A stretch of DNA of 35,488 nucleotides. Origin: a virus. Shown piece by piece: positions 10,925 to 12,979 of this stretch. The notes under the pieces were generated by a model. That model was given only the letters and a program-made list of their open reading frames with translations, had not been told where the DNA came from and made no database searches. Within the stretch, counting starts at the first letter, position 1. Every line of letters starts with the position of its first letter. The DNA is taken from positions 1 to 35,488 of the IMG/VR virus record IMGVR_UViG_3300020140_000003, one strand, 5' to 3'. Made by a program: the position numbers and the translations under genes.

Positions 10925-11219
10925 CATCTTCATCCCTAACTTTTTCTAAACATTCGTCAAAGACTTTTATCATTGACGGCAAGAGTTTTTCACTTAATCC
11001 TTTTGATACAGATGATATTTTTTGATGATATCTGAGGGCGATAAATCCCAGCAATTTAACATGAATCTTGCAAATTGAAATAATCGTCAATTCCAATCTA
11101 CCGTCGGCATCAAGCTTTGATTCGTTAAGCTTTAGTTCTGCAATAAAAAATTCACATACGGAATCAATTATTTCATTTGACAGGACATTTATTTTTTCAA
11201 AAGAATCTTCATTCTTCAT
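10914..11219 (-). CDS. Hypothetical protein downstream of csrA (101 aa)
   Basis: A 101-residue helical protein beginning [13 protein letters not shown] and ending in acidic KVRDEDDES. The middle has a hydrophobic helix ([19 protein letters not shown]) that could be buried or membrane-peripheral. It overlaps csrA by 11 nt and is surely co-translated with it. It is a candidate CsrA partner or antagonist by position only; there is no resemblance to FliW that I can see. Confidence 0.5.
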
Positions 11220-11397
11220 TTTTATTACTCCTTTCCTCTTGTTTTATTTTGTTGTATATCTCTTCTCGATGAACTGTAACGTTTGCGGGTGCATTAATTC
11301 CAATCCTTGCTTGATTTCCTCTGAGTCCTAAAATAATCACTTCTATATCTTCGCCGATAATAAGAACTTCACCGACACGTCTTGTTAAAATAAGCAT
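11209..11397 (-). CDS. csrA: CsrA/RsmA-family RNA-binding translational regulator
   Basis: A 62-residue homologue of the carbon storage regulator. The N-terminal strand [10 protein letters not shown], the [11 protein letters not shown] core and the VHREEIY motif align without gaps to Escherichia coli CsrA. The RNA-contacting residues L4, R6 and R44 are all kept, and the C-terminal tail is lysine/glutamate-rich. CsrA dimers bind GGA motifs in mRNA leaders, usually blocking ribosomes. A phage copy could redirect host carbon, motility or virulence programmes, or control phage mRNAs. Its own leader contains three closely spaced GGA motifs. It lies just downstream of a tRNA-like RNA and overlaps the next gene by 11 nt. 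Confidence 0.95.
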
Positions 11398-11445: not shown

Positions 11446-11601
11446 TGGTGAATCACGCCAGGAGTCGAACCTGGTTGCATCATATCCGATCGGCTCAAAA
11501 GACCTTAAACTAACATACGATTTAGTTCGCTGGGATAACAGCATTCATCTTAAATGAGCGTCTGCACGTTACTGAGATTCGCCGTGATCTCCCCGTGATT
11601 C
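11446..11601 (-). ncRNA. 156-nt tRNA-like RNA with encoded ACCA end
   Basis: Minus-strand RNA from 11601 to 11446. A perfect 8-bp terminal stem (GAATCACG, 11601-11594; CGTGATTC, 11457-11450) is followed by A-CCA. A canonical T arm adjoins it: CCAGG-TTCGACT-CCTGG (11474-11458). A D-arm-like hairpin GAGAT/ATCTC with loop CACGGCGA lies at 11591-11574. The ~97 nt between the D-like and T arms is far too long for a normal anticodon and variable region and holds further hairpins (TCAT/ATGA around 11557-11545; AACTAA/TTAGTT at 11527-11508). The 8+5 acceptor/T stack is like bacterial selenocysteine tRNA, but the length is not. Too short for tmRNA, and there is no AlaRS G-U pair. Probably a novel or expanded tRNA-like RNA. 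Confidence 0.6.
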
Positions 11602-11610
11602 ATAATTGGA

Positions 11611-11667
11611 GCGCCCCTATATTATTTCATCGGCACAAGGTTTCCCTTAAGCTTAATTTAGGGGCGC
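11611..11667 (-). other. Structured leader hairpin upstream of the tRNA-like RNA
   Basis: Perfect 9-bp inverted repeat GCGCCCCTA (11611-11619) and TAGGGGCGC (11659-11667). On the minus strand the enclosed sequence also holds AAGG-GAAA-CCTT, a stem with a GNRA tetraloop. It lies between the Gp157-like gene and the tRNA-like RNA, so it may form one transcript domain with it or mark a processing site. On the plus strand a T-rich run follows, so a weak terminator of antisense transcription is the alternative. The same 8-bp stem recurs at 30528-30550. Confidence 0.45.
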
Positions 11668-11673
11668 ATTTAT

Positions 11674-12171
11674 TTATTTTAGAGTTATTGTTAAAGACTT
11701 GGTTTCTTCAAGATAAGCGCCAGGTATTATTAAACCATTTTTTAAGTCACTCTTTAGAGCAGCATCATCAATTTTTGTTACTATTTCAGTTTTTATATAA
11801 GAAGATGGAAGGCTCATTTCATCCTCTTTTATTAGTTTTGGCATAGAGTTCTTTATTGTTATATCAAAAAGAGGGCATTTTATTGATTTTAAATTCATTA
11901 TTATCATGTTTTGTTTTATGTATTCTCTAAAAAAATCAATTTCTTTCTTTCTCTTTGTGATTCTTTCCGTGACATTTTTCTTGTGATTTTCAAGTTCTTC
12001 AAGATCAGAATTTATATTATTAATATAACAAACAACATTTTTCGCTTTTTCTTCAAAAGTTTTTGCGATAGGGTTAAGGGTGTCTTCAATAGTCTGTATA
12101 TCAAATCCATCTTCACTTAACTTTTGGAATAATTCGCAATACTCATTTGTTAATTCATATAAAGCAGTCAT
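11674..12171 (-). CDS. Gp157-like (Siphovirus Gp157 family) protein
   Basis: A 165-residue protein matching the phage Gp157 family: MTALYELTNEY start, a helix ending in EDTLNPI, a long coiled coil (about residues 40-95, LEELENHKKNVTERI), then a beta end with SLPSSYIKTEI, ALKSDLKNG and IPGAYLEE. The start at 12171 follows GAGGATAAATAAA. Family members accompany single-strand annealing recombinases in phage early operons, as here directly after bet. Their exact biochemical role is not established; an accessory DNA-recombination role is inferred. Confidence 0.85.
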   Translation of the reverse strand: MTALYELTNEYCELFQKLSEDGFDIQTIEDTLNPIAKTFEEKAKNVVCYINNINSDLEELENHKKNVTERITKRKKEIDFFREYIKQNMIIMNLKSIKCPLFDITIKNSMPKLIKEDEMSLPSSYIKTEIVTKIDDAALKSDLKNGLIIPGAYLEETKSLTITLK

Positions 12172-12172
12172 T

Positions 12173-12979
12173 TTATTTATCCTCACATATATTTTCTTTG
12201 ATTCTGTCTTTTATTTGCGTAAAAGTTGTTTCAATTTCTTTGTTTTTTGTTGACTTTGCATATCCAATTGCCGAAAGATAGTTTTTCTTCAATTCATCCA
12301 TAGTCTTGGAGTTCTCTATAAGCTCCAAATGAATATTTATTGTTTTTGATTGATCAATTATCAAGTCTTTTTCTCTAATTTCTGCGTTTAATTTTGACTG
12401 TTCATCGTTATCAGATTGATTCATCTCTTCTTCTGTATGCAATCCCGACATTTCGCACGGGAATGCTTTTCTCAAAGATAGAGACTCCGCGCATTTTGCG
12501 AGCATAACATCTGGCATTGTCTTCCATAGTCCAGACAATTCACCATTATACTTTTGCGCGTATGAATCCAGTCTTGCCACAGATACGACGGGGCTAGAAA
12601 AGTCTTTCCTATACACGCCAACCTTAGCGGCTATAGGCGATGATTTTTTAGTCCACACGTCAACCCAAACGCCATCGTCTCCGCACCACATCGCTTCTGA
12701 TTGACCGGCGTATTTCCCTGTTCTTTCTGCAATAAGCCTAAGACCATCCACAGAAGTTTGATGCGTGAATTTCTCAGAGTATGAGCCGTCTTTGTTTTTT
12801 GACCTTCTTTTTATTGCATATATCTGCTTAGAAAAAGGGTCAAGACCTGTCCTCTTGCATTGAGTCATAAACAATGCAAGCTCATCATCTGTTGCACCTT
12901 CGCAAATTGTTCTTTTTATCAAGTCAACCTGATCTTTTGTAAATATCTGTGCGTTTTTTTGGACTAATTCAACGCTCAT
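12173..12979 (-). CDS. bet: Bet/RecT-family single-strand annealing recombinase
   Basis: A 268-residue protein of the lambda Bet-like RecT family. Diagnostic stretches are [47 protein letters not shown] and the lysine/tryptophan region before [20 protein letters not shown]. It anneals complementary single strands during phage recombination and replication. The C-terminal ~75 residues are a charged helical extension with no family match. The start at 12979 has GGGAGA 8 bp upstream and lies 1 bp after the previous stop. No Exo/YqaJ-type exonuclease partner was found in the genome; Gp157-like protein is encoded immediately downstream. Confidence 0.92.

Follow-up and report, generated by a model that had tools for sequence, protein, structure and literature searches.

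An oversized tRNA-like RNA with an eight-pair acceptor stem and a covarying tRNA frame in a group of related phages

The 35,488-base IMG/VR virus record IMGVR_UViG_3300020140_000003 (herein the window, meaning the whole stretch of DNA that was analysed), which carries head genes like those of podoviruses together with a Gam/RecT recombination module and a csrA-like gene, encodes a 156-nt RNA that has the acceptor, D and T arms of a tRNA and a large domain in place of the remainder. Sequence comparison with relatives from two further virus contigs shows that selection acts on the pairing of the acceptor, D and T stems, and that the middle varies freely and holds no conserved anticodon arm. The features discussed below are, in window coordinates:

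11446..11601, minus strand: oversized tRNA-like RNA, 156 nt including the encoded CCA (sequence reading, scans and covariation)
11594..11601, minus strand: 5' strand of the acceptor stem, GAATCACG (4/8 pairs change on both sides among relatives)
11592..11593, minus strand: 2-nt linker GG (sequence reading)
11574..11591, minus strand: D-like arm GAGAT-CACGGCGA-ATCTC, 5 bp (5/5 pairs change on both sides)
11475..11573, minus strand: central 99-nt domain replacing the anticodon and variable arms (sequence and length not conserved)
11458..11474, minus strand: T arm CCAGG-TTCGACT-CCTGG, abutting the acceptor (sequence, covariation)
11450..11457, minus strand: 3' strand of the acceptor stem, CGTGATTC (sequence, covariation)
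11446..11449, minus strand: discriminator A (11449) and encoded CCA (11448-11446) (sequence reading)
11611..11667, minus strand: hairpin closed by a 9-bp stem, with a GAAA tetraloop inside, lying between the RNA and the gam-like gene
11674..12186, minus strand: gene for a Gam-like end-protection protein, upstream of the RNA on the same strand
11209..11397, minus strand: csrA-like gene, downstream of the RNA on the same strand; a neighbour, not a conserved partner

The elements that the initial annotation had named in this RNA, namely an 8-bp acceptor, a D-arm-like hairpin, a TTCGACT T arm, an ACCA end and a length of 156 nt, can all be read directly in the sequence. The acceptor strands (11601-11594 and 11457-11450) pair perfectly over 8 bp, and the U at 11602 could form a ninth pair with the discriminator A; with the T arm they give an acceptor/T helix of 8+5 = 13 bp, one pair longer than that of a standard tRNA (7+5). 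The 8-nt loop of the D arm contains GG but no A14, and a base other than U occupies position 8. Neither predicted folds nor sequence reading of the window RNA gave an anticodon arm with a 7-nt loop after the D arm. The central fold is weakly predicted and the RNA by itself has an unremarkable free energy (z = -1.1), so the case for the window RNA is one of anatomy and covariation, not of stability.

The exact combination of an 8-bp acceptor, a D arm with GG and a T arm occurred in none of 400 Markov-shuffled windows, a relaxed form of the acceptor/D/T combination was found at 0.0175 per Markov-shuffled window, and across the 35.5 kb no T arm other than that of the window RNA combines TTC[AG]A with five Watson-Crick pairs. 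Neither ARAGORN nor Rfam (including the tRNA model RF00005) calls the window RNA, and its description as a tRNA-like RNA of neither tRNA nor tmRNA length is right; tRNA and tmRNA genes were called neither in the window (ARAGORN, Rfam) nor in its RNA-bearing relatives. The resemblance to tmRNA (RF00023) lies in the tRNA-like ends and the large domain where the anticodon arm would be; that identity was rejected on the length of 156 nt, the lack of a match to RF00023 or to the tmRNA search of ARAGORN, and the absence of a recognisable tag reading frame and of a G3-U70 pair. The YrlA Y RNA (RF02553) is also a tRNA mimic, and is one without a free CCA end; this identity was rejected as well, the window RNA giving no match to RF02553 and a TROVE/Ro60 gene being absent. 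BLAST with the window RNA against phages and plasmids returned no homolog, the viral and bacterial collections searched do not contain its exact 29-nt 3' end, and its central domain has no antisense match of at least 11 nt elsewhere in the window (2.5 expected from shuffled sequence).

As close DNA relatives were not found, we searched by shape and by 3'-end pattern, and obtained related RNAs from two other virus contigs, G005 and G017, both of which share phage genes with the window. G005 (locus L022) is a terminase relative at 53% identity; its RNA is 113 nt long, has the acceptor GAATCTCG/CGAGATTC and the T arm GCAGG/CCTGC, and its fold shows a D stem of 7 bp and, adjoining the T arm, an arm of 10 bp. 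G017 was located by the 3'-end pattern and encodes a RecT 55% identical to that of the window. It holds RNA-1 (159 nt, acceptor GAATATCG/CGATATTC), RNA-1' (114 nt), which lies at a second copy of the region and joins the RNA-1 acceptor to a different D arm and middle, RNA-2 (215 nt, acceptor GAACGACT/AGTCGTTC), in which the D loop of the window RNA recurs identically, and a looser fourth RNA, RNA-3 (142 nt), in tandem some 5 nt after RNA-2. RNA-3 (L260:3593-3734) pairs GGGAGAA with TTCTCCC, has the T arm TGTGG-TTAAACT-CCACA and ends in ACCA; together RNA-2 and RNA-3 resemble a two-gene tRNA-like cluster ending the early operon. The ends of G017 (L260:1-2300 and L261:17500-20000) are diverged copies of one gene block with RNA variants of 114 and 159 nt, and this doubled block is either two merged strains or a true duplication. 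The 8+5 acceptor/T helix is kept in the relatives, and the discriminator in the group is A or U. RNA-2 ends in ATCA rather than NCCA, and the T-loop C56 is lost in two members, RNA-1' (TTAGACT) and RNA-3 (TTAAACT).

Because MAFFT misaligned the variable middle of the full-length RNAs, the frame alone was aligned for five RNAs (window, G005 and the 159-, 114- and 215-nt RNAs of G017), with the linker, the middle and, where needed, one D-loop base removed, and its register is thus hand-made. Standard pairs occupy 97.8% of pair-cells in this alignment, three members of which come from one contig (G017). Compensatory changes among relatives, whose absence the initial annotation had named beforehand as something that would refute its proposal, are present in 11 of the 18 pairs (acceptor 4/8, D 5/5, T 2/5). 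None of 500 shuffles reaches the observed covariation, and slid control structures are 34-44% paired with 1-3 double changes. The covariation is partly selected for, since two of the five aligned RNAs (that of G005 and the 215-nt RNA of G017) were found by scans demanding acceptor pairing; RNA-1 was retrieved solely through its 3' end and the 114-nt variant through its position, and both have the 8-bp acceptor partner though neither retrieval asked for pairing.

These stems bear on the suggestion that the locus is an attachment site copied from the 3' end of a host tRNA. A tRNA attP does carry a T arm, an acceptor and CCA, but here the 5' strand is present and covarying, the 29-nt 3' end was matched in no genome searched, and no tyrosine integrase was found in the window, G005, G017 or G004 (records that may be fragments). 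An attP site was rejected on the covarying 5' half, which contradicts it, and we regard the reading as scarcely credible.

The region between the D and T arms spans ~57 to 158 nt across the group with almost no common sequence, the longest stretches that central domains have in common being 7-9-mers, and no anticodon stem of 5 bp carrying a normal loop was recoverable in the window, G005 or G017 RNAs. This speaks against a tRNA with an intron or insertion from which splicing would yield a normal tRNA, as do the lack of an Rfam intron match and the 13-bp acceptor/T helix, which is unlike that of an elongator tRNA. Oversized tRNAs of that kind do have parallels in phages, as three long cases (L154, L160 and L181) pass the Rfam tRNA cut-off with large inserts and RNA1 of phage BF23 resembles tRNA-Leu with a hairpin inserted in the anticodon loop, but for the RNAs described here we consider splicing very improbable.

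Another structural counterpart is bacterial tRNA-Sec (RF01852), with which the group has in common an 8+5 acceptor/T helix, a long D stem and a T arm, CAGGTTCGACTCCTG, letter-for-letter identical to tRNA-Sec copies; the phage RNA differs in having no UCA anticodon arm, a middle of ~100 nt and a discriminator of A or U where the tRNA-Sec copies compared have G. The window RNA gives no match to RF01852, and the G005 RNA reaches 34 bits (E 1.7e-5) against a cut-off of 47. SerRS does not read the anticodon. The RNAs might descend from a relic or diversified tRNA-Sec/Ser-like gene and still be aminoacylated, acting as a charged non-ribosomal aminoacyl donor, a reading that would accommodate the 8+5 helix as well as the long D stem and long variable-like arm of the G005 RNA. 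We hold it to be improbable: by score only the G005 RNA resembles tRNA-Sec, no long variable arm is evident in the window RNA, the discriminator is not G, and no selenium or aminoacyl-transfer gene was recognised in the subset of proteins scanned. In bacterial tRNA-Sec, EF-Tu binding is lowered ~100-fold by the 8-bp acceptor, and the anticodon arm is not bound by any enzyme that acts on this tRNA (PMC7609411), a point that also speaks for the relic; an 8+5 RNA without an anticodon could therefore still be processed, CCA-ended and possibly charged, yet keep away from the ribosome.

We hypothesize, at somewhat less than even confidence, that the window RNA is a small RNA, not translated and constructed on the frame of a tRNA, which undergoes tRNA-like processing, avoids EF-Tu and carries a variable payload in its middle. 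It would be cut from the early-operon transcript in the manner of a pre-tRNA, with RNase P acting at the 5' end and host 3' enzymes trimming the other end to leave the encoded CCA; the tRNA elbow and CCA end may shield it from exonucleases, and the extra acceptor pair, as in tRNA-Sec, would prevent its delivery to the ribosome by EF-Tu. The central domain would then be the working part, each phage having its own; binding of a host RNA or protein is our preferred guess for what it does, with counter-defence or regulation equally open. Counting against this hypothesis are the ATCA end of RNA-2 and the ACTT end of BF23 RNA2, the loss of C56 in two members, the departures of the window RNA at A14 and position 8, and its weakly predicted central fold.

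The main rival, to which we assign a real but low likelihood, is that the RNA is a tRNA decoy whose elbow and acceptor titrate a host enzyme that cleaves or modifies tRNA, such as a defence nuclease, the middle being a spacer or an arms-race surface. The conserved tRNA surface and missing anticodon are in keeping with a decoy, which, having no anticodon, would itself be spared from an anticodon nuclease, and the hypervariable middle and several copies in G017 fit an arms race. However, no target is known and no defence context was found, and three acceptor pairs (G-C, A-U and A-U) are invariant in the group, whereas a pure decoy might need only shape.

Returning to the payload-bearing RNA that we favour, its genomic setting offers a further candidate partner, as the initial annotation had proposed a link to the adjoining csrA. 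The gene is encoded by five of the phage contigs compared (window, G005, G017, G004 and G007), and its adjacency in the window, with its presence in G005 and G017, is what a CsrA-linked regulator or sponge would have in its favour. That link did not survive comparison. On the 35.3-kb record of G005 csrA lies at 7.9 kb and the RNA at 34.1 kb, in G017 the two are ~6 kb apart, and csrA-bearing G004 and G007 have no such RNA in the parts read, nor did structural scans find one in the csrA regions of annotated csrA phages (Providencia, Vibrio, Pseudomonas). The window RNA contains two GGA against 2.6 expected, and across six RNAs ANGGA is absent and GGA is near or below chance. From gene order and motif counts the adjacency in the window looks incidental; a CsrA sponge was rejected on the position of csrA elsewhere in relatives and the lack of GGA enrichment, and joint action with CsrA is in our judgement most unlikely.

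The hairpin upstream of the RNA (11667-11611), also reported in the initial annotation, is present as described, with 9 bp between GCGCCCCTA and TAGGGGCGC enclosing AAGG-GAAA-CCTT. On the plus strand it overlaps a terminator-like site, and it is possibly a processing hairpin or a plus-strand terminator; by eye, no equivalent was noticed immediately 5' of the RNAs in G005 or G017. The terminase relatives found in bacteria were at most 41% identical and pointed to no host, and 369 genomes of one class, searched for RecT without a positive control, gave no match.

The suggestion that the locus belongs to an undescribed RNA system was too strong, as there are precedents in older phages. In the T5-like phage BF23 (AJ604530), RNA1 and RNA2 are annotated as 'tRNA-like RNA with unknown functions', RNA2 as a misc_RNA. 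RNA2 has the 8+5 plan: an 8-bp acceptor (CATTCTAG/CTAGAATG) abutting a 5-bp T arm (GCAGG-TTCGAAT-CCTGC), a 2-nt linker followed by a 5-bp D stem with an 8-nt GG loop, and a ~70-nt middle, over 126 nt to the ACTT/ACCA end. It differs in its acceptor and middle, in lying within the large tRNA cluster of a T5-like phage, and in that its own copy ends in ACTT with no encoded CCA, whereas an IMG/VR copy (L240) ends in ACCA. The window RNA and RNA2 have their plan in common, which does not of itself imply descent from a common ancestor. A looser precedent is T4 rnaC (species 1 RNA, 139 nt), a stable RNA which has the T arm CCGGG-TTCGAAT-CCCGG after a 10-bp hairpin but in which our search found no perfect acceptor of at least 6 bp, and which adjoins a tRNA cluster; in T4 rnaD (119 nt) that search gave no T arm plus acceptor. 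Both are Northern-validated late RNAs of unknown function (PMC9697503).

To gauge the extent of this class, we took 99 distinct viral 3' ends chosen only by a CAGG/CCTG T arm followed by ten free bases and CCA. An exact Watson-Crick 8-bp 5' partner giving a total of 101-249 nt was present in 10 of them (0.39 expected with shuffled acceptors); one of these, from a T5-like contig, belongs to the BF23 RNA2 type. Some long cases pass the Rfam tRNA threshold with large inserts, so that the wider set is probably mixed. Tentatively, phages may make wide use of a natural tRNA scaffold whose 13-bp acceptor/T helix the elongation factor would refuse, which would be processed and protected as a tRNA is, and which would bear a hypervariable payload where the anticodon arm should be; it would be represented by the window, G005, G017, BF23 RNA2 and up to about nine further loci. 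Among the other contigs, the oversized RNAs of L150 and L239 have by eye a common middle motif, CGG.AAACAC.CGGG, which hints at a common domain; the L239 contig, which bears one of these tRNA-like RNAs, also contains a Type II hammerhead ribozyme (L239:3312-3375), and a 121-kb phage contig with a 139-nt tRNA-like RNA also encodes a tmRNA (L208:3355-3635; RF00023, 94.5 bits).

T4 and T5-like phages have stable tRNA-like RNAs that have been listed without a function. The covariation described here shows that at least one tRNA-like group is kept by selection in phages in which no tRNA gene was found, and defines a checkable signature, namely an 8+5 helix with a D arm and no anticodon. With a selected frame, such a signature and a fast-evolving middle in hand, the question of function becomes directly testable.
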